DNA of 53,158 nt from a virus, in the IMG/VR virus record IMGVR_UViG_3300020183_000104, positions 1-53,158 of that record; one strand, 5' to 3'. The position numbers and the translations under genes were made by a program. The notes below the pieces were generated by a model. It was not told where the DNA came from. It saw nothing but the letters and a program-made list of their open reading frames with translations, and ran no database searches. Below, piece after piece: positions 8,301 to 49,598 of this stretch. Position 1 is the first letter of the stretch. Each line of letters opens with the position of its first letter.

Positions 8301-11241
8301 TAACACCGGTGTTAGATCGGTGTTAAATGAAATGGGAAGGAATTTATCAACGCTTGCACAAACAAATCACCAAGCCGCCATAAATTATCTGAAAAACAAC
8401 CCAGATAGCCCTTGGACGCAAAGCGTAAGCACAGCTTACGAAGCGGCGGGTAACACGATGCGCGACCTTGTGGGTGGTGGCGTGCTGGCCCTAGGTGATA
8501 AGCCTCTTGCCTTTAACATCATCGAAGGTGGTGAAGACCTTATTAAGCTAGGTCAGTCAATAGGTACCGGGCCGCAAGATACCGCAAATTGGGAAGAAAC
8601 AACACGACTTGTGCAAGCTACAACGAATCCTTTTGCAAAAGCCGGTATTGTCGCAGGGCGCATCTTAGACGGAAACAGCGGTTTAGCGCGTCAAGTAGAA
8701 GTTGAACTGCGTCAGGAATGGCCGGGGATTTTCTTTGGCGGTGGCACCGTAAGGGGTGCGCTCGTAGCAGGCGGGTTGATTGATGTAGGCGAAACTGGAG
8801 GTAGCGGAACAATTGAAGGCTACCAAAAAGCTATCGATGAAGGAAAAACCCATGAGCAAGCTTTGGCCGAAGGTCGTACAAGGGGTTTGGCCCAAGGTGC
8901 AACAGAACTTGTAGTTCAGGCTACGCTTGGAAAAATTACTGATGCTGCGCTCGGGCGAACAACTTCTTTTGGAGGGAGAGCCACCACGCGAGTTGGTAAA
9001 GAAACCGGTGAAGAGGCGCTTCAAGAGGGTTTAGGGTCAGTTGCTGGCGATGTTGCAACCGGACGAGCGGTTGACGCAAACACAGCTTTGACCAACGCGG
9101 TTTTAGGCGGATACACAGGAAAAGGTGGCGCTCTTACAACAACGCCTATATCAACGGCTCAAGATATTTCGGAAAGCTCACGCCCCCCAATTGGCTCAGA
9201 TCCCGAAGCGGTTAGCCGTTCGCTCAACACGATTCAAACGATTTATGGGGATTCAAAAGCTCAACAAGTCGTTAACACACTCACGTCATCTCCTGACTTA
9301 GCGGCTTCTGGGCAGCAAATCGTAACTAGCCTTTCAAATGTACTGGGCAATGACACCGCTTCACAAGTATCAAACAACTTAGTTGCGAATTTTGGACTGA
9401 GCAGCGCTTCAAGTGCTTTGCAGGACCAAGACATTAGCCTTGAAAACTTATCAACTGTCGTTGGAGAAACCAAGTCAGGCGATGACATCACACTTGGTGA
9501 TGCACTTGGCGCTGCGATTACGGGCAATGGCGAGCAAGTTTCTCCCTCAACGGTGGTAGGCACAAACGCCGACGGAACGAACTTCACGCTAGGTGATCTG
9601 ACAACTACCGTAAAGTCTTCAATAACTGCGCGACCAGAAAGAACCCTTGGTGACGACTTAACTGCAACAGATCTTGGCGGTCAAACAGAAAGAACCCTTG
9701 GTGACGACTTAACTGCAACAGATCTTGGCAGTCAAACAGAAAGAACCCTTGGTGACGGTTCAACCGCAACAGTTCTTGGCGGTCGACCAGAAAGAACCTT
9801 TGGTGACGGTTCAACCGCAACAAATATAGGTGTAAATACAGGCGCTACAACAGGGGCAACTGTTGGAGCGACCACAAATGTTAGTGCTGACACCAAGTCT
9901 GGGGTAGTAACTGGTACTGATACCAAGTCTGGGGTAGTAGCAGACACTGGAGTGAAGATCGGGGCCGGTGTTCAAGTAAATCCAGCGACCGGAGTGACAA
10001 CTGACACCAAAATCGACGCGAACACCGGGGCATCGACTACGCTGATTACGAATCCGAATACCGGAACAAAAAACACGGTCGTTCTAAACGACAGCACTGG
10101 AGTGAACAGCAGCACGGTAGTCGAGAGCAAGACTGGGGTGATTACAGACACTACTACAGACACCAATAATGGGACAACCAGCTCAGTGTCCACGGATCTG
10201 AAAACCGGTGCGGTCACAACCACCACTTCAGACAAGAATCTTGGAACTGTAACTCGAGTTACCGAAACTGTTGACGGGACCTCGACTACGACTAAGGACA
10301 CGACATCGAATGTGACGACCAATGTCACTATAAACAATAACACGAACACAACCACCGAAATTCGCGTAAACACCGACACGGGGAAAGTGGTGGTGACCGA
10401 GGTGGTTACAGGGTCGGGCGAAGTAGTAAGGACCGAAACCAAAACGGTGCAAGACCTCACCCCAAAAGAGATCGAGAAGATCGAGGTTAAAGACCCTGAG
10501 CCCGTCACCGCAGAAACCGTGCAGACTGCGCAAAAGTCGACGACCAAGTCCACTTCCTTTCGCGCGGCAGCGCCTACTAGGGGTGGCGGGATGCTTATGA
10601 GCGCTGCACCTGCGGTGACGTCCGAGATTGAGATGCCCGAAGCGGTGTGGCTAGGTGGAAGATTCCGCACCGACCTACCCTCGATCGCGGCGATGTTCCC
10701 GTTTCTTTTCCCTTCCCAAGAGCAGCAGGACACGGCGGCGGTATCCGCGCTGCGCCGCGCTTCAGGTGTCGAACCTCAAGTACCCAAGATGAGAGATATG
10801 GACTATTATGCATACGGTAAAGAACCTCAAGTACCCAAGAAGGGTGATATGGACTATTATGCATACGGTAAAGAACCATCGATCGATAGCATGCTCGGAC
10901 CGTACTTGAACGGGGGATCTGTCCAAAAGTACGCCCAGGGTGGTATAATGATGCCTTCGGCGCTGCAAGCCGCAGTCGGTGGGACACCACACAAGGGTTC
11001 GCACTACGTGCAAGGTGCAGGGGGTGGGCAGGACGACCTGATCCCGGCAAGGCTCGCGGATGGTGAGTACGTGTTCGATGCGGAAATCGTAGCGGCACTG
11101 GGCGATGGGTCGAACAAAGAAGGGGCACGAAGATTAGATGCAATGCGCGAGGCGATTAGGAAACATAAGCGATCAGGGTCGATTAAAAAGATCCCACCCC
11201 CTGCTAAAAGCCCTTTAGCTTATTTTAGAGGATCGAAATAA
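5329..11241 (+). CDS. giant internal virion / DNA-ejection-type protein
   Basis: 1970 aa, by far the largest gene. Regions in order: N terminus with a helix-turn-helix-like repeat (EQYGVSNARISQATGYSQ); 25 consecutive prolines (residues 110-134); long Ala-rich helical middle; Gly-rich hydrophobic stretch (GVLALGDKPLAFNI, GTVRGALVAGGLI) that could insert in membrane; then a Thr/Asp/Gly-rich low-complexity region with four 17-aa repeats (ERTLGDDLTATDLGGQT type); and a C-terminal module (GGQDDLIPARLADGEYVFDA, then basic tail) often seen in large phage virion proteins. It sits at the head of a run of four ejection-type genes. The middle, to roughly 9900, is visibly more AT-rich than the ends, suggesting a swapped segment. 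Enzymatic domains are not evident. Confidence 0.72.
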   Translation: MSPLKKYAEEVRKAGRYGDTILAHITPREASILQLLGGSGNENPQTGLPEFVTDVDIKAYIDAVLAGGGSDAEKAATINAAAEQYGVSNARISQATGYSQDVVDAYLALPPPPPPPPPPPPPPPPPPPPPPPPPSPLAYTYDDYYGAVYTPPSPSPTYTEELKQIYNDLVGQGKSHAEIQEIADQHGVGNIDAYRPSTPPPLLSTTGVSQTTSSENPSSPNDLSTPAVSLTEIKDTFTRAIKNPTQQYSEGPELGLVGQDFDIGTVVRDYGLDSVLQAVKGNSTLETLAKAALGDEKVNTPLGNLWARDARAIFSNFEKAGISNIENIPINERVENVATLQSGRSTWGFDLVPQENGGLSVESSVIYKAPWYSDYAPILAIASIFPSPVQPFAIAANAAIAIKEGEPLQAIAALAPLAGLDTVATVARVADAVEKGDALQAAVTLAGSKVGADIGNIEIFDGVNVKQVLQTVNTVDLLSEGKTGAALVSAGNAMGNQEIVAAGQTILFADALESGNPAAMVNAAVNLGNTVHRAAGTGNAPIDRSLDTPYTGDTYQDILRTADAANIADIDSQLGFQIGDSGYSRVAALSTADKESLDVKQDLGALAFAAAKAAGADDQTAFDVSKAATVGIVAPRTSITSLDTTFDPDLVELTAKEAAQMDAGEAIGTGALNSLTASNNPTEDEQISLAQTNQAVGSLLRDFSAIGSTIEPTDLADSLRLLKDPSGKPLPESEVTRLVSTATMNRTGVDIMMQYSKVNPESGIAQLERNTALAQMVAAGFSSERANNLLNGIDAQKAIGLENNRSIQSAYSNFTSGKGTEEQLRNAMTSAGYADAEINNVVMQGRAIIEGGKLTPGERVQERAANLPDIRAEIAGKSTFNDAYRLAREKLGAGATFTWQGRSYSTATAQERPDLTGRTTTAGPSTTVSEANTSQQDTTPTAQSGTSQQDTTPTAQSGQTVKVAGPGGRTFTVKLPLSKQEIADRNATGMFNTGVRSVLNEMGRNLSTLAQTNHQAAINYLKNNPDSPWTQSVSTAYEAAGNTMRDLVGGGVLALGDKPLAFNIIEGGEDLIKLGQSIGTGPQDTANWEETTRLVQATTNPFAKAGIVAGRILDGNSGLARQVEVELRQEWPGIFFGGGTVRGALVAGGLIDVGETGGSGTIEGYQKAIDEGKTHEQALAEGRTRGLAQGATELVVQATLGKITDAALGRTTSFGGRATTRVGKETGEEALQEGLGSVAGDVATGRAVDANTALTNAVLGGYTGKGGALTTTPISTAQDISESSRPPIGSDPEAVSRSLNTIQTIYGDSKAQQVVNTLTSSPDLAASGQQIVTSLSNVLGNDTASQVSNNLVANFGLSSASSALQDQDISLENLSTVVGETKSGDDITLGDALGAAITGNGEQVSPSTVVGTNADGTNFTLGDLTTTVKSSITARPERTLGDDLTATDLGGQTERTLGDDLTATDLGSQTERTLGDGSTATVLGGRPERTFGDGSTATNIGVNTGATTGATVGATTNVSADTKSGVVTGTDTKSGVVADTGVKIGAGVQVNPATGVTTDTKIDANTGASTTLITNPNTGTKNTVVLNDSTGVNSSTVVESKTGVITDTTTDTNNGTTSSVSTDLKTGAVTTTTSDKNLGTVTRVTETVDGTSTTTKDTTSNVTTNVTINNNTNTTTEIRVNTDTGKVVVTEVVTGSGEVVRTETKTVQDLTPKEIEKIEVKDPEPVTAETVQTAQKSTTKSTSFRAAAPTRGGGMLMSAAPAVTSEIEMPEAVWLGGRFRTDLPSIAAMFPFLFPSQEQQDTAAVSALRRASGVEPQVPKMRDMDYYAYGKEPQVPKKGDMDYYAYGKEPSIDSMLGPYLNGGSVQKYAQGGIMMPSALQAAVGGTPHKGSHYVQGAGGGQDDLIPARLADGEYVFDAEIVAALGDGSNKEGARRLDAMREAIRKHKRSGSIKKIPPPAKSPLAYFRGSK
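5656..5730 (+). repeat. (CCACCT)n hexanucleotide microsatellite coding polyproline
   Basis: A near-perfect run of CCACCT units, 75 bp long, encodes 25 consecutive prolines in the giant virion protein. A length change by one unit keeps the frame (two residues), so the tract can vary without breaking the gene. It is expected to form a rigid polyproline II rod between the N-terminal domain and the rest of the protein. Confidence 0.97.
8125..8201 (+). repeat. 39-bp tandem repeat, two copies
   Basis: Two identical copies with a 39-bp period encode TSQQDTTPTAQSG twice in the giant virion protein. This is a low-complexity linker in the AT-richer middle segment. The identity at DNA level suggests a recent duplication. 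Confidence 0.92.
9637..9840 (+). repeat. 51-bp tandem repeat, four copies
   Basis: Four consecutive 17-aa units of the type ERTLGDDLTATDLGGQT. The first two are nearly identical in DNA; the third and fourth have diverged (GDGSTAT replaces GDDLTAT). The unit ends just before another short repeat (DTKSGVV twice, about 9889-9940). It probably forms a repetitive beta or linker region. Confidence 0.93.
10771..10872 (+). repeat. 51-bp tandem repeat, two copies
   Basis: Two 17-aa units (EPQVPKMRDMDYYAYGK and EPQVPKKGDMDYYAYGK) stand in tandem just before the C-terminal module of the giant virion protein. They differ at only a few bases. Confidence 0.93.
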
Positions 11242-22820: not shown

Positions 22821-23096
22821 ATGAAACAGTACGACAACACCAATTCCGGTCTGTTGATGCGGAATGAAAATCGGACCACAGACTCGCATCCCGAATTTAC
22901 TGGATCGCTTAACGTTGAAGGTCGCGACTTCTGGGTCTCGGCCTGGGTCAACATTGGCAAGCCCGGATCTAAGATCGAGGGGAAGCGCTACTTCTCGATT
23001 AAGGTCACGCCGAAGGACGCTCCGAACCGCGCGAACACGGGTCGCAAGAACGCGGCGACGAATTACGACGATATAGACGACGATATCCCATTTTGA
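22821..23096 (+). CDS. small protein with SSB-type C-terminal tail
   Basis: 91 aa. The body (HPEFTGSLNVEGRDFWVSAW, then INIGKPGSK-like and KRYFSIKVTP) is a small beta fold similar to short phage proteins of unknown function (DUF736-like in style). The C terminus is acidic and ends in DDIDDDIPF, the same tip as bacterial SSB (DDDIPF), which recruits SSB-binding partners. A role as phage ssDNA-binding protein or as a mimic that recruits host repair/replication proteins is inferred. It is first in the polymerase operon, right after a strong promoter, and its stop overlaps the polymerase start (TGATG). Confidence 0.72.
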   Translation: MKQYDNTNSGLLMRNENRTTDSHPEFTGSLNVEGRDFWVSAWVNIGKPGSKIEGKRYFSIKVTPKDAPNRANTGRKNAATNYDDIDDDIPF

Positions 23097-24934
23097 TGAA
23101 CATCCCACGCATTGACGGTCAAATCCCCTACTTGGTGGTGGACACTGAAACCACCGGCCTCAATTGGTTGGAGGATGAGGTATTTGGCGTCTCGATCGCA
23201 CTTCCTGACGGCACCGCCGGGTACTGGGATGTACGGGCGACGCCAAAGATCCTGGATTGGCTAAGCGATCTTATCGCCGAGGATCGGGTTGGGGTGTGGG
23301 TTGGGCATAATTTCAAGTTCGACCTGCACTTCCTGCGTGAAGCTCGGGTGAGCATTCCGACCGACCGGATCGATTGCACGATGATTCGGGCGGCGCTGAT
23401 CAATGAGCATGAACCGACCTACGGGCTGGATTTCTTGGCGCGGAAGTACGTTGGGGCGCAGAAGGACACGGAGATTTACGATGAACTGGCGAAGATATTT
23501 GGTGGCCGTGCTACACGCAACGCGCAGATGCCGAACATTTCACGCGCTCCTCAAGAGATCGTGGCGCGGTATGCAATCCTGGACGCGGTAGTCACGCGGA
23601 AGCTTTACCTGTGGCAGCGCGACGAGATCGAGAAGCAGAACCTGCATCGAGTCCATAGTCTCGAGCGTGAACTAATGCCCGTCATTATCGATATGGAGAC
23701 CGAGGGTGTGCGGGTCGACGTCGATATGGCCGAGAGAGCCTCCCGACACCTCACGAAGCGCATCGACGATATGCAGCGGGACTTGAATACGGAGGCCGGG
23801 TTCGAGATCAACCCGAACCCCTCCGGATCGATCGCGCAGCTATTCAAGCCGACCCTAGGGGAGGACAATGAGTGGTACCTGATCGACGGGACCCGGGCAG
23901 GGAAGACCGATGGCGGGAAGGCATCGATCGACGCTGATTGCTTGCGTCGTATGAAGCATCCGGCGGCGAAGATGATCCTTGATCTCCGCAAAATGCTCAA
24001 GACCCGCGACACTTTCATTCAGGGCCATATCCTTGGTCACCAGCAGGACGGGGTGATACACTGTAACTACAACCAGACCAAGAACGATGCGGAGGCCGGG
24101 ACCGGCACCGGGCGGCTTTCGATCACAAATCCGGCGCTGCAGCAGATTCCGTCGCGGGACGTAGCGATCAAATCGCTCGTGCGCCCGATCTTCAAGGCGG
24201 ACCACGGCGCGAAATGGTTGGGGCTCGATTGGTCGCAGTTCGAATTCCGGGTAGCGAATCACTACGGGCAGGTGCCGTCGATCCTGGAGGCCTACCGGGT
24301 AAATCCGAATCTGGACTTTCACCAGTTGGTGTCCGATATGACCGGCATCCCCCGGAACGCGCAGTACGCCGGGGGTCCATCCTCGAAGGCGATAAATCTC
24401 GGGCTCGCTTTCAATATGGGTTCCGGGCGGCTGGCCCAAGAATGCGGACTTCCCTACACCGAGGAGACGGGGCCGAATGGGAACGCGTACCTTAAGGCGG
24501 GACCCGAGGCAATGGAGCTTTTCGAGCGGTACCATGCCGCGAACCCCGGGATGCGGAACATGGCAAACAAGGCGAGTTCGATCGCCAAAGAGCGCGGGTT
24601 CGTGCATTCGATCTTGGGGCGGCATATTCGATTCCCGGGTGGGCAATTCGTGCACAAGGCGTCGGGGCTGATTTACCAAGCGACGTCGGCCGACTGCATG
24701 AAAATGAAGCTCATTGAGCTTCACCGCTATTTGACCGGCCACGGGGTGGGGCGGCTGCTGCTGTCCGTGCATGATGAGGTCGGAATCTCGCTTGATAAGG
24801 ATTCGCTGAATCACGCCGCGAAGATCGCGCAGATTTACACTACATTTGATGGTATCGATTGCCCGATCAAGCTCCGGGTACCGATTACCTGTGATTGGGG
24901 CTTGGGTGAAGACTGGTACGAGGCAAAAGGATGA
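23096..24934 (+). CDS. dpoZ: family A DNA polymerase with 3'-5' exonuclease (DpoZ-like)
   Basis: 612 aa from the ATG at 23096 (a TTG at 23093 is also in frame). The exonuclease domain has motif I VVDTETTGL (Asp16, Glu18), motif II VGHNFKFDLHF (Asp76) and motif III YAILDAVVT (Tyr159, Asp163). The polymerase domain has TGRLS, motif A GLDWSQFEFR (Asp378), motif B SKAINLGLAF (Lys431) and motif C LLSVHDEVGI (Asp560). There is no 5'-3' nuclease domain. The residue matching E. coli Pol I Phe762 is Leu435, a variant known in viral PolA. Its stop overlaps the purZ start by 4 nt; in Z-genome phages a polymerase in this position is called DpoZ. Whether it prefers Z over A cannot be read from sequence. 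Confidence 0.93.
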   Translation: MNIPRIDGQIPYLVVDTETTGLNWLEDEVFGVSIALPDGTAGYWDVRATPKILDWLSDLIAEDRVGVWVGHNFKFDLHFLREARVSIPTDRIDCTMIRAALINEHEPTYGLDFLARKYVGAQKDTEIYDELAKIFGGRATRNAQMPNISRAPQEIVARYAILDAVVTRKLYLWQRDEIEKQNLHRVHSLERELMPVIIDMETEGVRVDVDMAERASRHLTKRIDDMQRDLNTEAGFEINPNPSGSIAQLFKPTLGEDNEWYLIDGTRAGKTDGGKASIDADCLRRMKHPAAKMILDLRKMLKTRDTFIQGHILGHQQDGVIHCNYNQTKNDAEAGTGTGRLSITNPALQQIPSRDVAIKSLVRPIFKADHGAKWLGLDWSQFEFRVANHYGQVPSILEAYRVNPNLDFHQLVSDMTGIPRNAQYAGGPSSKAINLGLAFNMGSGRLAQECGLPYTEETGPNGNAYLKAGPEAMELFERYHAANPGMRNMANKASSIAKERGFVHSILGRHIRFPGGQFVHKASGLIYQATSADCMKMKLIELHRYLTGHGVGRLLLSVHDEVGISLDKDSLNHAAKIAQIYTTFDGIDCPIKLRVPITCDWGLGEDWYEAKG

Positions 24935-26034
24935 AGAAAATCGATTTGGTTATTGACCTTCAATTCGGCAGCACGGGTAAGGGGTTGATCGTCGGTACTC
25001 TTTCTACCTACGAGGGGTACGACACGGTGATTACCGCATGGGCACCAAACGCGGGGCATACGTTCATTGATGCCCGGGGGCGAAAGTTCGTACATACGCA
25101 TCTGGCCAACGGCATCGTGGCCCCCTACCTTCGTAGGGTACTGTTGGGTCCAGGCTCGGTCATCAATCCGGCGCAGCTCCTGGCCGAGATCGAGCAGTGC
25201 AAGGATATAATTGAAGAGAAGCGAATCAAGATCATGATTCACCCGCATGCAGCGGTGGTGACTGATGAACACTTGGAGGAGGAGGCGCAAAGCATGACGG
25301 CGATCGGCTCGACCAAGAAGGGCGTGGGCGCGGCGATGATCTCTCGAATCCGTCGGCAGCCAAACAAACCGGCCGTCGCGAAGGACTTCTTTGAACTCAT
25401 GGATCTGGTGTGCACCACCGAGCAGTACACGCGAGCGGTACACGATTCGACTCATATTCTAATCGAGGGTGCACAGGGCGTTGGGCTCTCTATGTACCAC
25501 GGTTTTTACCCCTACACGACCTCGCGGGACGTCAGCACCTTTCAAATCCTGGCCGATTGTGGAATTCCGGCGACGATCTTCAATCAGGCTTCCTGTCGTG
25601 TGGTCGGCACCGCGCGGACCTACCCGATCCGGGTAGCAAATCGATTCGATTCGGACGGGCGGCAGGTGGGCTTCAGTGGGCCGGGACACCTGGACCAGAC
25701 CGAGATCTCGTTCGAGCAGATCGGTCAGCCGACCGAACTCACCACGGTGACCAAGCTTCCCAGGCGCATTTTTACATTCAGTCGGCAGCAGATCCTTGGG
25801 GCGATCGACCTTTCTGGCGCGAGCGAGGTGTTTTTGAATTTCGTGAATTACGTGCAGGACGAGCAGTACCTGCTATCGATCGTGAACGCGATCGAGGAGG
25901 CCGGGGCTAGAATTAAATGGTTGGGTCTAGGTCCAGATATCCTCTCGGTGGTGCTGCTGTCCGAGGGTGAGAACTACACGGCGCGGCGCAAAGAGATCGT
26001 GTCCAAGTGGCAGCGTTACCAATTTCGTAATTAA
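24931..26034 (+). CDS. purZ: PurZ, N6-succino-2-amino-2'-deoxyadenylate synthase
   Basis: 367 aa, shorter than cellular PurA (about 430). It belongs to the adenylosuccinate synthetase family: P-loop QFGSTGKG (residues 11-18), PNAGHTF (His43), AIGSTKKGVGAA, IEGAQGVGLSMYHGFYPYTT and ARTYPIRVANR. In PurA the first loop reads GDEGKGK, with Asp13 as catalytic base. Here Ser14 takes that place, the established mark of phage PurZ, which accepts dGMP instead of IMP. The product dSMP is cleaved by host PurB to 2-aminoadenine nucleotide. No phage purB is present. It is coupled to the polymerase (ATGA overlap) and followed by mazZ and datZ, so the whole cassette is intact. Confidence 0.95.
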   Translation: MKKIDLVIDLQFGSTGKGLIVGTLSTYEGYDTVITAWAPNAGHTFIDARGRKFVHTHLANGIVAPYLRRVLLGPGSVINPAQLLAEIEQCKDIIEEKRIKIMIHPHAAVVTDEHLEEEAQSMTAIGSTKKGVGAAMISRIRRQPNKPAVAKDFFELMDLVCTTEQYTRAVHDSTHILIEGAQGVGLSMYHGFYPYTTSRDVSTFQILADCGIPATIFNQASCRVVGTARTYPIRVANRFDSDGRQVGFSGPGHLDQTEISFEQIGQPTELTTVTKLPRRIFTFSRQQILGAIDLSGASEVFLNFVNYVQDEQYLLSIVNAIEEAGARIKWLGLGPDILSVVLLSEGENYTARRKEIVSKWQRYQFRN

Positions 26035-26049: not shown

Positions 26050-26568
26050 ATGGCGAGTGAATTCATAATGAACTCGTTGCTTCACACCAACGAGAAAAAC
26101 CCCCTTCCTTGGTCTATCCACCCGGATACCGACTTGGTGGTGGTGGATGCGAACGGTGCGGCGGTCGCGAACTTTGAGGTAAGGCACCAACACAAGGGTG
26201 TACTCGCGAATTGCGAGAAGAATGCAGACTTGGCTGTGCGATCCGTTAACGCATTTGCCAAGCGCGGAGGGGCAGATATCCGGCGGCTGCAGCAGGTGGT
26301 CACCACTTGGGCGGACGAAGTGTTCCCGCATAGAAAGACACCCGACATTTTGCTTAAGCTCTACGAGGAGGTGGGTGAGTACGCCCGTGATCCGAAGGCG
26401 GCGGCAGAGTTCGCGGATATAATGATTTTGTTGCTCGATCTAGCGGCGATCAATGGCATCGATATTCAAAGGGCGGTTACCGAAAAAATGGCGTTGAACG
26501 TTGGACGTAAGTGGATCGTGGACTCTCAAACCCGTATTATGAGGCATACATATGATGAAAACCCGTAA
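26050..26568 (+). CDS. mazZ: MazZ, MazG-like (d)NTP pyrophosphohydrolase with extra N-terminal domain
   Basis: 172 aa. The C-terminal part (about 75-155) is MazG-like: KLYEEVGEYARDPKAAAEF with metal-binding Glu106, Glu107, Glu110, Glu120 and Asp123 (ExxE and ExxD pattern), then ADIMILLLDLAAINGIDI and KMALNVGRKW. In Z phages MazZ converts dGTP to dGMP, the PurZ substrate. The first 70 residues (PWSIHPDTDLVVVDANGAAV and NADLAVRSVNAFAKRG) resemble a small domain common in phage proteins, so this looks like a fusion. It lies 15 bp after purZ with an AGGAG site and overlaps the next gene by 17 nt. Assignment rests on family plus context. Confidence 0.85.
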   Translation: MASEFIMNSLLHTNEKNPLPWSIHPDTDLVVVDANGAAVANFEVRHQHKGVLANCEKNADLAVRSVNAFAKRGGADIRRLQQVVTTWADEVFPHRKTPDILLKLYEEVGEYARDPKAAAEFADIMILLLDLAAINGIDIQRAVTEKMALNVGRKWIVDSQTRIMRHTYDENP

Positions 26569-26767
26569 TCAAGTATTCGAGATCTGGTACACGCGTCGGT
26601 TTGGCGAGTTACTAGGCGAACAGGACTCGCACACCAGAGAGTTCGTGCGGGAGATATGGAATCAGGCGCTCAGTCGTGCCGTGGATCACTTCGAGTTCGA
26701 GAATTTCGAACCTCTTGAAAGTGGACAGATCATCGACCGGCTTGAGCGTCTTAAAGCGATAAGGTAA
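26552..26767 (+). CDS. small hypothetical protein inside the Z cassette
   Basis: 71 aa (69-70 aa if the ATG at 26555 is used). It is helical and charged, with no zinc or TM motifs (EIWYTRRFGELLGEQDSHTR; LESGQIIDRLERLKAI). It overlaps the mazZ 3' end and ends 5 bp before datZ. Because it is embedded between two Z genes, it deserves attention as a possible cofactor or regulator, but the sequence gives no function. Confidence 0.6.
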   Translation: MMKTRNQVFEIWYTRRFGELLGEQDSHTREFVREIWNQALSRAVDHFEFENFEPLESGQIIDRLERLKAIR

Positions 26768-26772
26768 TCAGG

Positions 26773-27321
26773 ATGAGTTTTTCTCTAGCTGAACAGCTCC
26801 GTGCTTCGCACGTTAAACGGTGGCAGATCGTCAACGTTTCGCGCACCCAGAATCTCGCGGAGCATCATTTTAACGTCACCCTCATTGTCGGTCAACTCGC
26901 TCGACACTGCAGGGACAAGCGGCTGCTCGACCCCCAGTACGCGTTGAGGCTCATGTACTGGTCGCTCTCGCACGATATGGTCGAGGTTCGTACTGGGGAC
27001 ACCCCGACGCCCTACAAGCGGGTGTTAGAGCAGGTGGGTGGGCCGGACATTATCGACAAGTCCGAGGAGGTCGTGGATCCCGAGTACATTGCCGACAAGC
27101 GTCGGATCGCTGGGACGCCCATCGAAATGTATGTGGAGATCGCGGATTTGATCGAGGCGATTTGGTTCCTGAGTGACCATGGAATTGGCAAGAGCGCAGT
27201 CGCCGTCCGGGCGGGGCTCGAAGCGTCGCTCGACCGATGTGTGCAGAAGTGGCGTGGGGTTTTTAGGGAATTGGATATTGATTTCGCGGTGTGCCGCGTA
27301 AGTGAGGAGATCGGAATATGA
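26773..27321 (+). CDS. datZ: DatZ, HD-domain dATP triphosphohydrolase
   Basis: 182 aa, close to the 175 aa of the S-2L protein. HD-superfamily, YfbR-like: KRWQIVNVSRTQNLAEHHFN (His31/32), YWSLSHDMVEVRTGDTPTPY (His67-Asp68, then the GD-TPTP loop) and a second metal-site Asp in VEIADLIEA. YfbR itself reads HD-SEVLTGDLPTPVK, so the fold is secure. In Z-genome phages DatZ removes dATP so that adenine does not enter the new DNA. Here it is the last enzyme of the cassette. A general 5'-nucleotidase is the alternative, but the purZ-mazZ neighbours make DatZ far more likely. Confidence 0.9.
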   Translation: MSFSLAEQLRASHVKRWQIVNVSRTQNLAEHHFNVTLIVGQLARHCRDKRLLDPQYALRLMYWSLSHDMVEVRTGDTPTPYKRVLEQVGGPDIIDKSEEVVDPEYIADKRRIAGTPIEMYVEIADLIEAIWFLSDHGIGKSAVAVRAGLEASLDRCVQKWRGVFRELDIDFAVCRVSEEIGI

Positions 27322-27518
27322 AATGCGTTAAATGTGGCGGTATCACCCAGGTCACGACCGTGTACCAAAACGCGAATGGTGGAACGCGTCGCCGCAGGGC
27401 ATGCACGGTCTGTCAATTCCGATTCACCACGCGCGAGTATCCGTCGATCACGGATCCGAAGCTCAAAGAGTACTATTTGGAGACAGATGTTGACACAGAT
27501 ACCCCGCCCGTGATATAA
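27318..27518 (+). CDS. NrdR-like zinc ribbon protein, no ATP-cone
   Basis: 66 aa. The first 40 residues copy the N-terminal zinc ribbon of NrdR, the repressor of ribonucleotide reductase genes: CVKC (Cys3, Cys6), basic RRRR at 24-27, CTVC (Cys29, Cys32), then FRFTTRE. The ATP-cone domain that senses dATP in NrdR is absent; only about 25 residues of acidic tail follow. It overlaps datZ by 4 nt. It could bind NrdR boxes of the host and alter the dNTP supply, or regulate phage genes. No nrd genes are in the window. Confidence 0.82.
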   Translation: MKCVKCGGITQVTTVYQNANGGTRRRRACTVCQFRFTTREYPSITDPKLKEYYLETDVDTDTPPVI

Positions 27519-27519
27519 T
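27490..27519 (+). promoter_or_regulatory. sigma70 promoter of the HDAC-like gene
   Basis: -35 TTGACA 27490-27495, 18-bp spacer, TATAAT 27514-27519 with TG extension. It lies inside the 3' end of the zinc ribbon gene, 29 bp before the next ATG. The AUAGAGGA element is at about 27536. Confidence 0.85.
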
Positions 27520-27548: not shown

Positions 27549-28379
27549 ATGACCCCGATTTTTTACAATCTCCACCAGTCCTGCGACTTCGACTTTCCGT
27601 CTTATCGCAAGATCCCGATGTTCGTGCGACAGGCCGCGCGATCACTGGTTACCGATTTCGAGCCGCTTAAAGACGTCGATTTGATCACCGCGCATTCGGT
27701 TGAGTACGTGGTAAACGTGTTCTTGGGGAAGATTTCTAACGGATTCAGAAACACCGACTCGACGCTCAACGAGACACTCAGGTACACGAACGCGAACTTC
27801 TTGGCTGCAACTCGGCACGTGAGCGAGAAGAAAACGGAGGTCGCATGCTCAGCGACCCAGGGCTTCCACCACGCAGGGTTCGATTTCGGAGGAGGGTACT
27901 GCACGTTCAACGGGTTAATGATCGCGGCGCTCAGCGATGGAGTGATCAAACCGGCGCTTATTCTCGACGGTGACGGCCACTACGGGGATGGGACGGACGA
28001 CATCATCGAGGCGCTGGCTATGCGCGACCGAGTGCGGCACGTGACGAATCTTGATATGCAATCATTCGTCTCGCGCTACAAGCCGAACGCTTGTAACTGG
28101 GAAGTGTGGGCCTCCGGCTTGATTTCGTCGTCGAAGCCTAGTATAATAATGTACCAAGCCGGCGCTGACGCATGGATCGAGGATCCTTATGGTGCGGGGT
28201 ACCTCACTCTTGAGGGTCTGCGGAATCGTGACCTCGGGATCTTTCGCGCAGCCAGGAAGTCCAAGATCCCTCTCGTGTGGAATCTCGCCGGTGGATACTG
28301 CAAAGATGTTCAGCGCACGGTAGACGTGCATATTCAGACACTCAAAGCCAGCGACGAGGTGTACTATGGCGGGACCTAG
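27549..28379 (+). CDS. HDAC / acetylpolyamine amidohydrolase family enzyme
   Basis: 276 aa, shorter than the usual 300-380. All residues of the HDAC-type zinc site are present by comparison with HDAC8: catalytic His107-His108 in GFHHAG, the Tyr-Cys loop GGGYCTFNGLMIAAL, zinc ligands Asp142 and His144 in ILDGDGHYGDGTDD, zinc ligand Asp207 in MYQAGADAWIEDP, and the active-site Tyr250 in NLAGGY. The first 50 residues keep the HSVEYV motif. Family members remove acyl groups from lysine or polyamines. It has its own promoter and follows the Z cassette directly. The substrate is unknown: polyamine, host protein and modified base intermediate are all open. It overlaps the next gene by 14 nt. Confidence 0.85.
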   Translation: MTPIFYNLHQSCDFDFPSYRKIPMFVRQAARSLVTDFEPLKDVDLITAHSVEYVVNVFLGKISNGFRNTDSTLNETLRYTNANFLAATRHVSEKKTEVACSATQGFHHAGFDFGGGYCTFNGLMIAALSDGVIKPALILDGDGHYGDGTDDIIEALAMRDRVRHVTNLDMQSFVSRYKPNACNWEVWASGLISSSKPSIIMYQAGADAWIEDPYGAGYLTLEGLRNRDLGIFRAARKSKIPLVWNLAGGYCKDVQRTVDVHIQTLKASDEVYYGGT

Positions 28380-30264
28380 GAAAGCACTCACATTCTTGGA
28401 CCTTATGGGTCATGCCGGAGCGGGAACCCGAGAGTTGGCAAATATCCCGGGGGCGAAACGCATCCCGGAATCTTTCGCCAGAGCGCAGAAAGGGATGGTT
28501 CCCGCCGAGGTTATTGAGCAGTACAACAAGGATGAGATGTTCGGGAAGGACAAGAAGACGGGTGTAGCGAGGCAATTGGTCCAGTTGCCAAGCGCTAAAG
28601 CTCCCGCGTTGTTGGTGAGCGACCGGGCGCGCATGACACAAGGAAAACTGCCGCTGCACTCGAGCATAACGCAACAGGTGATAAACCCATTGGACCCCTA
28701 CAACCCGTTGTCTGAATTTTCGGCAACCCCGGGTTTCGTCACACCTCCTGCTGAGGAGCTTTACCGCCGGATGCACGATCGTGCCGAGAATGCACAACGG
28801 GCGAAAATCGTTCCGGATGATGTCGGTGTGTATGATATTGGGTCGTTGAATGCTGGTCGGTTGGGGAAGGAGGGGTTCGGTGCTATGCAGTATGCGGCAC
28901 TCTACGACCAACTTCGTGCCGCAGGAGCTTTTTCAGGTCCGACGGGCCTCACCGATATCAACGAATTACGCAGGCTGGGTAACGTGATGTCCTACGGTCT
29001 TCGGCATGGTGACTACGAGAACATCGCCCCGGTTATAAGCTTTATGAATAGATCGCCCCAATTATTTCACCGCGCGGAATATGCGGACTGGTTGGCTCGC
29101 CCCTTGATGGACATCTTGCAGCAGGGTAAAGGCGATCCGATTTTCGACGCAGCGGTGGCGTTGGAACCCGTGGACTTGGCGAACATGACACCGGACCAGA
29201 TCACCGGGGTGTTGGGTCTAAAAGAAGCGCAGTTGACTCGCGCCGCAGGTCCGGTAAGTGAACCGGGCATGCTCGAGGCGGCGGATCTTGGTCTGCTTCG
29301 CCACTTAGCGGTCCCTGCTCTTAAAAATCCTAGTGCCGGAAAAATAGCGAGGGGTATCGGTCCCAACACCCTGGGCCGTGCGGCAACGGTGGAGCAGTTA
29401 ATTGAGAAGATCCTCGCGGGTCGCACCGGAGAGGAAGCGGCGGAGGAGATTATGGATCAATCAAAGCGTCGCGGGATGAATTTAGAGGAAGGGTTTAAGG
29501 GTAGGTACAAAGGTGGTGGTTCGGTCGCTTCCTTTTCCGGTGGTGGTGGAGTAAAAAAGAATGTGGCTGAAATGGCTGCGGAACTTGCTACTAAAGGTAC
29601 CAAGACTCCGGATATGTCCAGGCGTAAATTTATGTCTCTAGGCAATGTTTTCAATTCTCCGACCTCGACGCTTAATCTACCGGTGACTGCCACCGAAGCG
29701 GCGAAGATGTCGCAAGATCCGGCGTTATCGGCTATCGAGAAAATAGCGGAGGCTCCCGTCTCCAGACGGCAGGTACTCAAGGGTGCTTTGGCGCAGGGTG
29801 CGCAACGAGTGCTACCTGAGATTTCGCCTACTAGTGCTCTATCACGTGCTATTGATGCGGCCACTGGTGCACCACAAACAGCAAGCACCATCCCGGGTCT
29901 TGTGGCTCAGGGTTTAAACATGAAGCTTAAAGGGCAAGAATTGGTCGACTTTGTAACTCGCTCGATGCCACCGAGCGACGTTCATACTCCAAAATCGCTA
30001 AAGTTTACGACGGAACTCCTAGCTTCTAACATCAAAAAGCCTGAACCCTATATCGACATGTACTATGATTATGACCCTTCTTCGATTCGTTTACAAATCC
30101 TCACCGATCAGTTGTTTCCTGAGGCTAAGAGGCCACCAAGCGGAATGGGTTTGCGACCGACGTTGCGCGAGATTCAAGAATATAATCCTAAAGCATACGA
30201 TAAGCTCGTAAAATCAGCGACTACACTCAGGGATCAAATCGCCAAGGATCTCGAAGATGACTAA
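28366..30264 (+). CDS. large protein sharing a C-terminal domain with the 39795-41045 gene
   Basis: 632 aa, no enzyme motif. The N-terminal 370 residues are helical and unassigned (KGMVPAEVIEQYNKDEMFGK; FVTPPAEELYRRMHDRAENA). A Gly linker (GGGSVASFSGGGGVKK) leads to a C-terminal domain that matches residues about 180-416 of the protein at 39795-41045: MAxELxTKGxKTPDxSRRxF, then PVSRRQxLxGALAQ, then GLVAQGLxM and a basic/aspartate-rich end. The two SRR motifs look like twin-arginine motifs but are internal. The Gly-linker style is that of virion proteins here, so a virion component or packaged protein encoded in the early block is possible. It overlaps the HDAC-like gene. Confidence 0.7.
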   Translation: MAGPRKALTFLDLMGHAGAGTRELANIPGAKRIPESFARAQKGMVPAEVIEQYNKDEMFGKDKKTGVARQLVQLPSAKAPALLVSDRARMTQGKLPLHSSITQQVINPLDPYNPLSEFSATPGFVTPPAEELYRRMHDRAENAQRAKIVPDDVGVYDIGSLNAGRLGKEGFGAMQYAALYDQLRAAGAFSGPTGLTDINELRRLGNVMSYGLRHGDYENIAPVISFMNRSPQLFHRAEYADWLARPLMDILQQGKGDPIFDAAVALEPVDLANMTPDQITGVLGLKEAQLTRAAGPVSEPGMLEAADLGLLRHLAVPALKNPSAGKIARGIGPNTLGRAATVEQLIEKILAGRTGEEAAEEIMDQSKRRGMNLEEGFKGRYKGGGSVASFSGGGGVKKNVAEMAAELATKGTKTPDMSRRKFMSLGNVFNSPTSTLNLPVTATEAAKMSQDPALSAIEKIAEAPVSRRQVLKGALAQGAQRVLPEISPTSALSRAIDAATGAPQTASTIPGLVAQGLNMKLKGQELVDFVTRSMPPSDVHTPKSLKFTTELLASNIKKPEPYIDMYYDYDPSSIRLQILTDQLFPEAKRPPSGMGLRPTLREIQEYNPKAYDKLVKSATTLRDQIAKDLEDD

Positions 30265-30283: not shown

Positions 30284-30568
30284 ATGAATGTTTATCTCAA
30301 TGCAATACTCGAGGAGCGCGGCTCCGAATATGGCGATTTCACCGCACAGGCGCAGATCTCCCAGGCGCTGCAGGACATAGCTAGGGCCGGGTGCAGCTAC
30401 ACCTCGACGGAATCCTACCAGAGGGAGGCACTCGCAATGATTTTACACAAAATCTCTAGGATCGTTAATGGAAACACACGGAACGTTGACTCATGGGCGG
30501 ATATCGCCGGATATGCCACACTCGTTGCAAACCGACTACAAAAGGGAGGGGGGATTGACAGATTGTAG
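30284..30568 (+). CDS. DUF6378-like phage protein
   Basis: 94 aa. The pattern ILEERGSEYGDFTAQAQISQ, QREALAMILHKISRIVNG and VDSWADIAGYATLVANRL is that of a small helical phage family listed, from memory, as DUF6378. Its order of conserved acidic residues is reminiscent of MazG-like helical folds, but metal-binding motifs are not clear. A strong AAGGAG site precedes the ATG. Its 3' end overlaps the -35 box of the next promoter. Function unknown. Confidence 0.75.
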   Translation: MNVYLNAILEERGSEYGDFTAQAQISQALQDIARAGCSYTSTESYQREALAMILHKISRIVNGNTRNVDSWADIAGYATLVANRLQKGGGIDRL

Positions 30569-38433: not shown

Positions 38434-39805
38434 TCCGCACAATTTCTTGGAGTTCGTATCCGAGATGAACGATCAAGAGGTGGTGGAGCTTTACTACGAT
38501 TGGCCGACCTGGGCTCGACCCAATCAGATAGTTCCTCCTGGCGAGGACTGGACGATTTGGCTCATTCTCGCCGGTCGTGGGTGGGGCAAGACCCGGTGTG
38601 GTGGTGAATTCGTTCGGTTTCACGTGGAACGAAAGCTCGCTTCACGCGTCGCGCTTATCGCCGAAGACGCAGGGGACGCCCGGGACGTGATGATCGAGGG
38701 TGAATCCGGGCTGCTGGCCATATCGCACCCCTTTCAACGCCCGAATTGGGTGCCGTCCAAGCGCCGTCTCGAATGGCCCAACGGAGCGATGGCGACCATC
38801 TACTCGGACAACGATCCCGAGACGCTTCGAGGTCCGCAGCACGACCTGTTTTGGGTCGACGAACTTGCGAAGTTTCGTAACGCCAAAGAAATGTGGTCGA
38901 ACTTGATGTTCGGTCTGCGCCTCGGCCAACGTCCGCGCGGTGTCGTCACTACGACGCCTAAGCCCATTCCAATCGTGCGTGAGCTGCTCGAAAGTCCGCG
39001 CGTATTCGTCACTTCAGGGACCACGCATGAGAATTTCGGAAACCTCGCCCCAACCTTTCGTGATGAAATCATCGCCCAGTATGAGGGAACACGACTCGGA
39101 CGCCAAGAGCTTTACGCCGAGGTTATCGACCCGGAAGATTACGGAATCGTCAAGCGCGAGTGGTTCAAGCTTTGGGACTCCGATCGGCCATTTCCCGATT
39201 TCATGTATATTGTGCAGTCCTACGATTGTGCTTACACCGAAAAGACTATCAATGACCCAACCGCATGTTCTGTCTGGGGAGTGTTCAGGCCGAGTGAAGA
39301 TTCACCTATATGCGTAATGCTCATCGACTGCTGGGAAGAGTTTCTCGTTTACCCCGATCTGCGTCCCCGGGTCGTGAACGAGTACAAAGAGTCTGTGTAC
39401 GGCGAACCCGGTAAAAAGACCGATTTGGTGTTGGTCGAGGAGAAAGCCTCGGGCATTTCGATTCTCCAGGACCTGCGCTACGCCGGGGTGCCTTGTCGTG
39501 GCTACAATCCGGGCAGAGCGGACAAAGTGCAACGGCTGCACATCGTGGCGAACATCGTTGCTTGTGGCCGGGTCTACATCCCCGAATCGGTCGTGCACCG
39601 GGGGCAGCCGCGCGACTGGGCGGAGAAGCTTGTCTCCCAGATCTGCTCTTTCCCCGAGGCCGAGCGCGACGATCTGACCGACACCACCACGCAAGTGCTC
39701 CGGCTGTTAAAGGACATGGATTTCTTGCGTATCGACCCGGCCGAGGTCGCGCCGGATTACTACGACGACGAGCGTCCACGCAGGGTGAACCCTTATGCCC
39801 AATGA
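38363..39805 (+). CDS. terL: terminase large subunit
   Basis: About 480 aa. A GTG at 38363 with GAGGG 5 nt upstream is the preferred start; an in-frame ATG at 38342 would overlap terS more deeply. The ATPase domain has Walker A LAGRGWGKTRCG, Walker B HDLFWVDELAKF and the coupling motif VVTTTPKP. The nuclease domain has Asp in YDCAYTEKT, Glu in LVEEKASG and Asp in DDLTDTTTQ (RNase H-like metal site). The LAGRGWGKTRxG form is common to podoviral terminases. It packages DNA into the prohead through the portal encoded two genes later. Confidence 0.95.
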   Translation: MIDLPNDYRRSPSRRYKAKKAPIDPHNFLEFVSEMNDQEVVELYYDWPTWARPNQIVPPGEDWTIWLILAGRGWGKTRCGGEFVRFHVERKLASRVALIAEDAGDARDVMIEGESGLLAISHPFQRPNWVPSKRRLEWPNGAMATIYSDNDPETLRGPQHDLFWVDELAKFRNAKEMWSNLMFGLRLGQRPRGVVTTTPKPIPIVRELLESPRVFVTSGTTHENFGNLAPTFRDEIIAQYEGTRLGRQELYAEVIDPEDYGIVKREWFKLWDSDRPFPDFMYIVQSYDCAYTEKTINDPTACSVWGVFRPSEDSPICVMLIDCWEEFLVYPDLRPRVVNEYKESVYGEPGKKTDLVLVEEKASGISILQDLRYAGVPCRGYNPGRADKVQRLHIVANIVACGRVYIPESVVHRGQPRDWAEKLVSQICSFPEAERDDLTDTTTQVLRLLKDMDFLRIDPAEVAPDYYDDERPRRVNPYAQ

Positions 39806-41045
39806 TCTCCTTAGAACGGTCGGCGAGTATTTCAACCCCGAGGACCTGCTCACCTTGGCCGGACCGTTGGCCGGGTTAAAGCCCACGGCCGGGATCACCG
39901 CCGCGTTGTACGCGCCGAGCTTGAACGAAAGCGAGGCCGAGGAGTTAGAAAAGCTTCGCGCGATGCGCCCTCCCGTCCCCGTCGCTGCTCCCGTTGCTCC
40001 ACGTGAAACAGCACAGACCCTGGAAATGCGCGATTTCATGAATCGACTCCGGTACGAGCAGTTCGTGGGAGACCTGCGCCAGAAGTACGGACAACATGCC
40101 GATTTAATTCTTCAAGGGCTGATTAAGCAAGGGTTGCAGGACGAAGCGCAACAAGCCCGGATGATCGGTCCACGTGCCAAGCCTCCCGCCCCTCCCGCTG
40201 CACGGCACGAGATGACTGTACCCGTAGGACGGTTCCGGAGGTACGCCGAGGGCGGCATGATCGAGCATATGACGCCGGACATGTCTGATGGTGGTCGGAT
40301 GATCTACACCGATTTGCTCGATTCCTACGCCGGGGGTGGTGGCGTCAAGGGAAAGACCGTACAGCAGATGGCGGACGAATTGCTCACCAAAGGCCTGAAG
40401 ACCCCAGACCTGTCCAGGCGTGGTTTCATGCGACTGCCCGATCTCGATGGTCCCAAGGAGTCAAAGCTTCCGGTACCCGCCAAAGACATGGAGCGTTACC
40501 AGACCGAGAAAACCACGGTAGACCCCCTGTCGGGGTCGGTGGAGAAAGTGGTTGAAAAAGTAGCGCAAACGCCGGTGTCCAGGCGTCAGATGTTGCAGGG
40601 CGCACTCGCCCAAGCCGCGCGAAGGGTAATGCCTTCTGTGGCTATGCAGCCTGTGAGGGATATGGCGTCCGAGGTGGTAAAGACTGTGATGAAGCCCATC
40701 CCCGCGCCCTCGATCGGTGGATTGGTGGCACAAGGGTTAAAGATGGGAATGGACGAGGACGAAATCCTGCGTTTTGTGCAAAGTGCGATGCCTGGGGCTG
40801 ACCCTGAGAAACTGGCCGGGGATTTGTACTACTTACCAGGAATTATGCGCGATCCGTACGATTACTTTGAGGACATGGGTGATGAGCCGCTCATGAAAAT
40901 TTTCGGAAAGTTGGTGTCGCCTTACCAAGAATCGCCGATGGCACTTCGTCGTACGATGCGCGACATTCGAGCGTTAGACCCAGAAAAATACGATGAGTTG
41001 AAATCAGTGGCTCGCGATATTAAAATGTCGAATCTGGAAGACTAA
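39795..41045 (+). CDS. virion-region protein with SRR-motif C-terminal domain
   Basis: 416 aa, placed between TerL and portal. The N-terminal half holds Pro/Ala-rich and helical parts (VPVAAPVAPRETAQTLEMRD). A Gly linker (YAGGGGVKGK) leads to the C-terminal domain shared with the 28366-30264 protein: QMADELLTKGLKTPDLSRRG, PVSRRQMLQGALAQ, IGGLVAQGLKMG and a helical end (RRTMRDIRALDPEKYDELKS). The gene overlaps terL by 11 nt. An unusual extra gene at this place, possibly a virion-associated protein; function unknown. Confidence 0.68.
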   Translation: MPNDLLRTVGEYFNPEDLLTLAGPLAGLKPTAGITAALYAPSLNESEAEELEKLRAMRPPVPVAAPVAPRETAQTLEMRDFMNRLRYEQFVGDLRQKYGQHADLILQGLIKQGLQDEAQQARMIGPRAKPPAPPAARHEMTVPVGRFRRYAEGGMIEHMTPDMSDGGRMIYTDLLDSYAGGGGVKGKTVQQMADELLTKGLKTPDLSRRGFMRLPDLDGPKESKLPVPAKDMERYQTEKTTVDPLSGSVEKVVEKVAQTPVSRRQMLQGALAQAARRVMPSVAMQPVRDMASEVVKTVMKPIPAPSIGGLVAQGLKMGMDEDEILRFVQSAMPGADPEKLAGDLYYLPGIMRDPYDYFEDMGDEPLMKIFGKLVSPYQESPMALRRTMRDIRALDPEKYDELKSVARDIKMSNLED

Positions 41046-47878: not shown

Positions 47879-48724
47879 ATGGGCCAATTCAAACCGATGG
47901 TCAAAATGATGACTACCGAGCCTTCGGTCATTCTGAAGCTGAAGGATGGTGGTTCTGCCTCGCATAAGCGGCTCATGAAAGAGGGCGGCGAAATGGGGCA
48001 TAAACCCATGGGAAAAGCGATCGGTGGCGCGATGGGCGCTTTAGCGGGTTCACCCCCTCCGACCACCCCAATGGGAAACCCTGTAGCAGCTAAGGCTATG
48101 GCGGCTCGTCGTATGGCGAAAATGCCTACCCCTCCTGCGGCTTCGGTACCCCGAGTTGGACCTGCTCCCGTGCCACCAGCAATGCCAATGGGTCGTCCGA
48201 TGATGCGCAAGAATGGCGGCGCATTAGAGGCACTCAAAGCACATGCGGGGAAACCTGCCTCAAAAGCTCACAAGGGGTTGAGGACTGGCGGAGTCGCTAA
48301 GTCGACGAAACCGGGTGAGTATGCTACCGGTGGTGTGGTAGATGGGCAGGGCGGTTTCAAGAATGGTGGTATCATCAAGACGATGGCCAAGAAGACGACG
48401 AAGGTGGTAGAGGCTAGGCCTGACCACAATTCAGCTCCGACCGGTGACGTCAAGATGGGTAATGCTGGTGGCTACAAGAAGGGTGGCATGGCCATGGTCA
48501 AGAAAGATGGCAAAAAAGTGCCAGCATTTCTTGCTAAGGCAAAGGGTATGATGGGTGGTGGTATGGCTTATGAGAAAGGTGGTTCCACAAAAAAGTGCTA
48601 CGCTACGGGGGGTCTTGTTGATTCAGGCAAACCCGTAGCGATGCCGAAAAAGGCACCTTCTGAACCTGTCGCGACCTCCCAGGAAGCTGGGACGTTCAAG
48701 AGGGGCGGTGAGGTAGCCTGTTAA
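47879..48724 (+). CDS. basic Gly/Lys/Met-rich virion-region protein
   Basis: 281 aa of very low complexity, rich in Gly, Lys, Met and Pro (KPMGKAIGGAMGALAGSPPP; KKGGMAMVKKDGKKVPAFLA; GFKNGGIIKTMAKKTTKVVE). Overall it is strongly basic, so DNA binding is possible. It contains repeated GGxxK segments (ATGGVVDGQGG; MGGGMAYEKGGS). Similar Gly/Lys-rich proteins are common next to phage head genes; no function is proven. A GGGGGC-TTCG-GCCCCC hairpin follows the gene. Confidence 0.6.
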   Translation: MGQFKPMVKMMTTEPSVILKLKDGGSASHKRLMKEGGEMGHKPMGKAIGGAMGALAGSPPPTTPMGNPVAAKAMAARRMAKMPTPPAASVPRVGPAPVPPAMPMGRPMMRKNGGALEALKAHAGKPASKAHKGLRTGGVAKSTKPGEYATGGVVDGQGGFKNGGIIKTMAKKTTKVVEARPDHNSAPTGDVKMGNAGGYKKGGMAMVKKDGKKVPAFLAKAKGMMGGGMAYEKGGSTKKCYATGGLVDSGKPVAMPKKAPSEPVATSQEAGTFKRGGEVAC

Positions 48725-49049: not shown

Positions 49050-49598
49050 ATGCCTGCCAAATCCAAGGCTCAATTTCGACTAATGAAAGCGGCGGAGAGC
49101 AATCCCGCTTTCGCCAGAAAGGTCGGAATTCCGTCTACGGTAGCTGCTGAATACACCGCTAGTAACGTCAAAGGAAAGTCCTACGGTAAGCTTCCTGAAA
49201 AGATGGCTGAAGGTGGTCTTTATGCGAATATTAATGCTAAACGTGCTAGAATCGCTGAAGGCTCTGGCGAGAAAATGCGGAAGCCCGGTTCTGCTGGTGC
49301 TCCGACGGATAAGGCCTTCCGAGATTCTGCGAAAACTGCAAAGTTTGCGCGCGGCGGTGTTGCACTTGCTGTCGGGCGTGGTGAAAAGCTTGCGACATCT
49401 GAGGGCGCGGGACTCACGGCAAAAGGAAGAGCCAAGTACAACCGAGAAACCGGATCGAACCTCAAAGCCCCACAACCTCAAGGGGGTTCACGGAAGGATA
49501 GTTTCTGTGCTAGAATGTCGGGTGTCGTGAAGAACGCATCGGGTGATGCACCACGGGCTAAGGCGAGTCTCCGCAGATGGAAATGCCCCGGATGGTAA
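49050..49598 (+). CDS. phage protein with DUF3008-like and DUF6321-like parts
   Basis: 182 aa, basic. The N terminus (PAKSKAQFRLMKAAESNPAF, PSTVAAEYTASNVKGKSYGK) resembles DUF3008-type phage proteins. The C-terminal part (GLTAKGRAKYNRETGSNLKA, RKDSFCARMSGVVKNASGDA, KASLRRWKCPGW) matches a conserved phage domain, from memory DUF6321, with two conserved Cys. Function unknown; found with virion genes in aquatic phages. Family names are from memory. Confidence 0.72.
   Translation: MPAKSKAQFRLMKAAESNPAFARKVGIPSTVAAEYTASNVKGKSYGKLPEKMAEGGLYANINAKRARIAEGSGEKMRKPGSAGAPTDKAFRDSAKTAKFARGGVALAVGRGEKLATSEGAGLTAKGRAKYNRETGSNLKAPQPQGGSRKDSFCARMSGVVKNASGDAPRAKASLRRWKCPGW

Follow-up and report, generated by a model that had tools for sequence, protein, structure and literature searches.

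The window, that is, the whole 53,158-nt stretch of DNA analysed here (IMG/VR virus record IMGVR_UViG_3300020183_000104), in which no tRNA was found, carries an ORF for an HDAC-fold zinc deacylase that is preceded by a purine-rich ribosome-binding region, lies directly after the genes of a Z cassette and is overlapped at its 3' end by a gene termed o632. The phage clade concerned is uncultured and has 2-aminoadenine in place of adenine. The features of this locus are the following.

23093-24934, + strand: family A DNA polymerase, upstream of PurZ
24931..26034, + strand: PurZ, 2-aminoadenylosuccinate synthetase (PHROG 1211, 4e-83); context, outside the HDAC/o632 module
26050..26568, + strand: MazZ-type dGTP pyrophosphohydrolase (PF04447, 9.3e-7; phrog_801, 2.3e-9); context
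26552-26767, + strand: 71-aa ORF (o71), matching no family; kept within the Z cassette of the clade
26773..27321, + strand: DatZ-type dATP triphosphohydrolase (phrog_7076, 3.1e-25); context
27318..27518, + strand: NrdR-like zinc ribbon, 66 aa (PF22811, 2.5e-7), left flank of the module
27490..27519, + strand: sigma-70-type promoter TTGACA-N18-TATAAT of the HDAC/o632 unit, 0 mismatches
27549..28379, + strand: HDAC-fold zinc deacylase, 276 aa, ATG start, of a class IV/cluster 5-like branch
28366..30264, + strand: o632, 632 aa, overlapping the HDAC stop by 14 nt and matching no known family
29569..30258, + strand: o632 C-terminal extension, aa 402-631, with homology to the C-terminal end of the ORF at 39795-41045
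30284..30568, + strand: o94, right flank of the module, which adjoins the zinc ribbon directly in the related phage L065

The first-pass annotation had placed the enzyme next to purZ, mazZ and datZ, and PHROG and Pfam matches confirm that all three lie just upstream, the PurZ of the window reading GSTGKG with Ser at the Asp position of PurA. These are the PurZ, MazZ and DatZ types, in order, of the Z cassettes of S-2L, phiVC8 and SH-Ab 15497 (PurZ, MazZ/DUF550, DatZ, DpoZ). The NrdR-like zinc ribbon (27318-27518) is a small ORF kept within the Z cassette across the clade of related phages. The overlapping downstream gene o632, which that annotation did not mention, accompanies the HDAC more constantly than the Z genes do.

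The HDAC ORF matches the Pfam model PF00850 (Hist_deacetyl) over its full length (2.3e-21, 77 bits for a cut-off of 28 bits), and a matching model is absent from PHROG, NCBIfam and PADLOC. Its catalytic elements are complete, namely H107/H108, D140/D142/H144, D207 (in GADAW) and Y250 (in GGY), and they fall in four segments.

27858..27872, + strand: Q104-G-F-H-H, with His107/His108, the foot-pocket gatekeeper Phe106 and the clade-specific Gln104
27966..27980, + strand: D140-G-D142-G-H144, with zinc ligands D142 and H144
28158..28205, + strand: A204-G-A-D207-A-W209...D-P-Y214-G-A-G-Y-L219, with ligand D207, the clade-specific W209 and the A216 insertion
28287..28298, + strand: A247-G-G-Y250, with the catalytic Tyr250

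These residues are invariant in 28 relatives, and with hardly an exception the 155 non-redundant homologues surveyed, which comprise 28 Z-clade, 52 other phage and 75 bacterial proteins, also have H107, H108, D140, D142, H144, D207 and Y250. The tandem His is present in 28/28, 52/52 and 75/75 of them, respectively, the zinc ligands D142, H144 and D207 are invariant in all three groups, and Tyr250 in GGY is found in 28/28, 52/52 and 74/75. An AlphaFold2 model built on the 28 relatives has a pLDDT of 92.8 and a pTM of 0.92, and Foldseek searches with it retrieved HDAC-fold enzymes (arginase/deacetylase fold) at E 1e-11 to 1e-16. The intact zinc site of an HDAC fold that had been read from the sequence is therefore borne out, and dN/dS values of 0.10-0.22 in comparisons with four close relatives indicate that the gene is under purifying selection.

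The comparison with HDAC8 and acetylpolyamine amidohydrolases made in the first-pass annotation calls for a correction: by both profile and predicted fold the phage enzyme is nearer to class IV (HDAC11-type) deacylases than to either. The best matches are class IV/cluster 5 deacylases (VcHdaH, 9gkv/9gky; Leptospira HDAC11, 9gz5; human HDAC11), with TM scores of 0.80-0.83 and E values of 1e-14 to 1e-16. Among solved structures, Vibrio cholerae HdaH with decanoic acid comes first (TM 0.82), Leptospira HDAC11 with cis-5-dodecenoic acid matches at TM 0.80, and HDAC6 and HDAC8 come next. In VcHdaH and liHDAC11 alike, the foot pocket was seen to contain a carried-over carboxylic acid. Profile scores follow suit, at 137 bits for VcHdaH, 106 for liHDAC11 and 105 for 9rje over nearly the whole protein, but only about 60 for single HDAC6 domains, 54 for ApaH (partial) and 49 for HDAC8. 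The phage enzyme and the class IV/cluster 5 deacylases have the same zinc site, a Phe/Tyr before HH, a GGGY/AGGY motif (AGGY in the phage HDACs, as in liHDAC11) and no RPP motif, a feature of robust deacetylases (PMC11532494) in place of which the Z clade has T/S-Q-G-F-H-H. The phage protein differs from them in being 22-23% identical and some 30-40 residues shorter, in having Gln104 and Trp209 fixed in the Z-phage branch and in its constant pairing with o632. In loop 1, moreover, the HPFD motif that marks clade B is not seen, the consensus of the Z-phage proteins reading DFISVxKIPEF in this segment, and for this reason the enzyme is not filed as a member of HDAC11 clade B.

Pocket residues give further clues to the substrate, residue equivalences with known enzymes being drawn from pairwise alignments. 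In class IV clade B, acyl-lysine deacylase activity depends on a bulky Phe/Tyr before HH and on a small side chain where Ser94 stands, while clade A enzymes have Thr/Ser and Arg at these two positions and deacylate peptides poorly or not at all (PMC13325672). As VcHdaH, the closest solved relative, is among the latter, this counts against an acyl-lysine substrate. The gatekeeper Phe106 directly before HH, present in 28/28 Z-clade and 51/52 other phage proteins, aligns with the Phe122/Phe141 gatekeeper required by clade B HDAC11s. Ser/Thr80, present in 28/28 Z-clade proteins, aligns with Ser94 and not with the clade A Arg, in a register that follows from an ungapped alignment and an inferred construct offset of 3. 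The Z-phage branch has in addition its own fixed residues, Q104 (Ser in other phages), A208 and W209 (His elsewhere), together with a one-residue insertion at 216; Gln104 and Trp209, fixed solely in this clade, may mark a different substrate. Taken at face value, the pocket residues fit a deacylase of acyl-lysine, its pocket altered, better than an amidohydrolase of polyamines. In a bacterial relative from a Spirochaetaceae MAG (L145:9258-10846), a sirtuin gene (PF02146, 3.3e-42) overlaps the HDAC start, so that two unrelated deacylases sit in one apparent operon, an overlap that points to protein deacylation.

It is nevertheless conceivable, if unlikely, that the enzyme hydrolyses amides of small molecules. 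It might, for instance, deacetylate acetylpolyamines and so supply free spermidine or putrescine with which to package DNA, or it might be an acylase of N-acyl amines or acyl-homoserine lactones. Viral acetylpolyamine amidohydrolases are known, active ones being encoded by giant viruses (PMC9992855), and M. ramosa ApaH (3q9b) and the APAHs of Imitervirales share the superfamily fold and catalytic chemistry with the phage enzyme. Moreover, clade A class IV enzymes seem to use non-peptide substrates (PMC13325672) and proteins as short as the phage ones may leave an open pocket. However, ApaH is matched over part of the protein and with a much lower score than VcHdaH, no long insertion is present between H49 and Y79, the extended L2 loop for polyamine specificity being, like a head-to-head dimer, a feature of cluster 4 enzymes, and the RPP motif is likewise missing (PMC11532494). 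This active-site comparison weakens the polyamine substrate that had been put forward, and polyamine genes were not recognised among the neighbours of the HDAC.

The position of the gene invites a different reading, in which the enzyme would serve the Z pathway, by taking an acyl or similar group off a purine nucleotide or in some other way, and this we consider improbable. PurZ relatives and HDAC relatives from IMG/VR, which are metagenomic fragments, were compared after grouping into distinct stretches, using the best 80 loci per pattern-limited search. Among the matches listed, the HDAC of the clade is found in 65 distinct stretches, it is preceded by PurZ-MazZ-DatZ in 39/39 of those with more than 4.7 kb of upstream sequence, and the order PurZ-MazZ-o71-DatZ-zinc ribbon-HDAC-o632-o94 is identical wherever it is covered. 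Distances between HDACs are closely correlated with those between PurZ proteins (Mantel r 0.90), DpoA (0.92) and o632 (r 0.93), which implies that the block has been inherited vertically, and the co-occurrence of HDAC and PurZ within the clade is thus not independent evidence of a link, all the more so as the nearest HDAC relative among the matches listed, L016, is without PurZ. In the PurZ tree (all trees are FastTree or other quick trees), the HDAC-bearing phages form one supported group, within which a nested pair (L036, L065) has no HDAC. A third locus, L052, had at first sight seemed HDAC-less and was set aside, as it ends before the HDAC position.

Outside the clade the association dissolves. 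No HDAC was found in the 204 INPHARED PurZ records, which include Vibrio, Arthrobacter, Acinetobacter and other named phages and all of which also lack o632, nor in the records of the PurZ sister clade that were searched, which rules out the HDAC as a universal gene of Z cassettes. Conversely, some 50 other HDAC-bearing virus contigs are without PurZ, with the exception of one 370-kb phage (G026) whose PurZ-like GSCGKG protein is encoded far from the HDAC; the adenylosuccinate synthetases read in two HDAC-bearing large phages (G004, G005) are true PurA, with GDEGKGK. On the 370-kb contig (G026 / L287 / L239), the HDAC has genes for a nucleoside deoxyribosyltransferase-like and a macro-domain protein in its neighbourhood. 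The scan of PurZ phages for this family that the first-pass annotation had proposed thus gives a divided answer: the HDAC-PurZ link is strict within one clade and, bar one 370-kb phage, absent outside it. The nucleotide reading can still point to the place of the HDAC right after PurZ-MazZ-DatZ in every informative stretch listed, to other phage HDACs near ThyA, YfbR-like HD, dCMP deaminase, RNR or ThyX genes or within 10 kb of PurA, to the one phage with both genes, and to the aromatic W209 and Y214 near a zinc ligand, which could stack on a base. Against it stand the named PurZ phages, the sister clade and the two in-clade phages that do without the enzyme, the PurZ-less L016, the promoter that the HDAC has of its own, and the gene triad of S-2L, reported to be sufficient for Z-DNA without an HDAC (PMC8342488). 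The claim that such an enzyme is not part of described Z cassettes is upheld, as no mention of an HDAC beside one came up in the PurZ papers found or in a search of full texts; an intact deacylase in this position is unreported in the literature searched.

Evidence from the downstream side of the gene is more consistent. Among the matches listed, o632 lies directly 3' of the HDAC in 65/65 distinct stretches, and a search with o632 listed none without HDAC, its matches being either known HDAC contigs or loci cut inside o632. The gene has no cultured-phage homologue in INPHARED and matches neither an NCBI nor a PADLOC family. Where the pairing is broken, both genes go together: in L065 the whole unit of promoter, HDAC and o632 is missing, with o94 within 5 nt of the zinc ribbon, and neither gene is present elsewhere in the 56-kb record (G010 served as positive control), while in its sister L036 both are also missing and the flanks are intact. 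In L037 (13532-16351), an apparent 1.5-kb insertion between HDAC and o632 is really a second copy of o632, so that two copies follow the HDAC in tandem.

The Z-phage proteins group together in the HDAC tree (support 99), and their sister is L016 (98). In the L016 group (L016, L340, L341), the HDAC ends a nucleotide-metabolism run (ThyA and a YfbR-like HD protein in L016, dCMP deaminase in L340) and converges with an o632-like gene, which in turn stands after a gene for an SLT ejection protein. The o632-like protein of L016 scores 36.2 with the o632 profile, against a mean of 12.7 (sd 2.5, max 21.8) for 537 background ORFs, and as this likeness spans about 70 residues homology is likely, not total; the L340 and L341 proteins are clear relatives of the L016 one and, taken alone, fall below the o632 profile. 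Since there are Z-phages without HDAC and since the PurZ-less L016 group has an o632-like neighbour, the stable partner of the HDAC is o632 rather than the Z pathway, and the HDAC/o632 module is probably older than Z-DNA synthesis and separable from it.

What o632 does can be approached from its C-terminus. Over its last 230 residues, o632 shares 36% identity (9e-32) with the C-terminal end of the ORF at 39795-41045, which lies between terminase and portal, and because this domain is common to a protein of the structural module, o632 is probably a virion or ejected protein, as judged from gene context. Twin-arginine-like motifs are present in both copies of the C-terminal domain (29569-30258 and 39795-41045), those of o632 reading SRRKFM and SRRQVLKGA. 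An aromatic-x-K/R-x-GG-hydrophobic motif, as at the end of the o632 core, also occurs in structural-region proteins at 5329-11241, 47879-48724 and 49050-49598. An exchangeable C-terminal domain and a weak LPD37 match liken o632 to phage polyvalent proteins (Iyer et al. 2017, PMC5512222); however, LPD37 scores 16.5 bits on o632 for a curated cut-off of 27 bits, stays below it in every member tested, and no catalytic domain was identified.

The core of o632 was modelled with a pLDDT of 83 and gave no firm Foldseek match, the many weak hits to GNAT-fold structures having a probability of at most 0.25 and E values of about 1 or more. A comparison of the o632 profile with five phage GNATs by hhalign was at background level and PF00583 has no match in the window, so that we do not claim o632 as a GNAT. 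We rate as improbable a scenario in which a degenerate GNAT-like acyltransferase domain of o632, taken to be a virion protein, marks host or phage proteins and the HDAC erases the mark after entry. In such a write-and-erase scheme, o632 would be injected with the DNA, the HDAC would be made after entry from its own promoter, and the pair would be older than its lodging beside the Z cassette.

The promoter itself deserves a comment, as it had been singled out as a strong one belonging to the HDAC. It is indeed a consensus element without mismatches, and a TATAAT promoter occurs at the same place 5' of the HDAC in nearly all clade members with upstream sequence; it is real, yet not special to the HDAC, because perfect TTGACA-N17/18-TATAAT promoters number six or more in the window, well beyond what chance would give. 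With up to two mismatches allowed, 13 N17 matches are observed for two expected. Perfect consensus promoters lie at the following positions.

22765, 27490, 30555, 31218 and 34591, + strand: perfect consensus promoters, 27490 being that of the HDAC/o632 unit
16393, - strand: perfect consensus promoter

A stretch like CACCGGTG/CCCGTG precedes the -10 box in many of the perfect promoters of the window.

Beyond the Z clade, the first-pass view that this fold is uncommon in phages applies to isolates and not to metagenomic viruses: INPHARED yielded three weak matches in 50,697 records, all of them uncultured megaphages outside the PurZ set, whereas relatives of the phage HDAC were found in at least about 190 virus stretches. 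In one group of large phages they adjoin tail sheath and tail tube genes (tail identities by eye), the HDAC lying just downstream of both in L217-L230 and L253. Several of these phages also have a full-length PurA-type gene within about 10 kb, with GDEGKGK in the two that were read. Other relatives lie near RNR and ThyX in one group and near DnaB-like genes (by eye) in others. The relatives in bacteria, examples being Polaromonas, Rhodoferax, Leptothrix and Spirochaetes, occur at scattered points among the phage ones, a pattern that a gene moving singly would be expected to leave.

Another reading is counter-defence, in which the HDAC would remove acyl groups put by a GNAT-type toxin or defence enzyme of the host on tRNA-bound amino acids or proteins. 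The module is moron-like, with its own promoter and a joint presence or absence between conserved genes, and two bacterial relatives (L141, L160) lie near WYL-type-regulator-like genes (by eye); however, PADLOC families match neither the HDAC nor o632 and a matching host defence is not known for these uncultured phages, which leaves this reading with a low probability. That the HDAC is a passenger in a conserved block, its function not tied to its neighbours, would agree with the vertical inheritance of the block (see the PurZ and DpoA correlations) and with the one lineage without the module, but is improbable given the low dN/dS, the catalytic residues that stay invariant at 49% identity and the constant overlap with o632.

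The reading that we prefer, and to which we give about an even chance, is that of an active acyl-lysine deacylase working with the virion-type partner o632 during infection, its activity and substrate being suggested by sequence and model. In the proposed mechanism, Zn2+ held by D142, H144 and D207 would polarise a water molecule, which His107/His108 would activate, while Tyr250 would hold the oxyanion. The most likely substrate would be a protein acyl-lysine whose acyl group fits the foot pocket closed by Phe106. The enzyme and the overlapping o632 would be expressed jointly from the HDAC's own promoter, as one accessory module in which o632 may be a substrate or recruiter of the HDAC, or in which both may interfere with a single host protein at an early stage of infection. 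The first of these roles is not favoured by the sequence, the candidate lysine, the K of the o632 RYxKGG motif, not being invariant among relatives. The enzyme adjoins PurZ-MazZ-DatZ but would not be needed for making dZTP.

HDAC-fold enzymes have hardly been described in phages, and the survey reported here reveals a sizeable phage and bacterial family, in one branch of which, that of the Z-phages, the enzyme is locked to a single partner gene, o632. It also corrects a tempting inference, as a gene beside PurZ-MazZ-DatZ need not belong to Z-DNA synthesis. Two questions are made testable in this way: which acyl mark a phage must erase in the course of infection, and whether or not o632 is the target of the enzyme.
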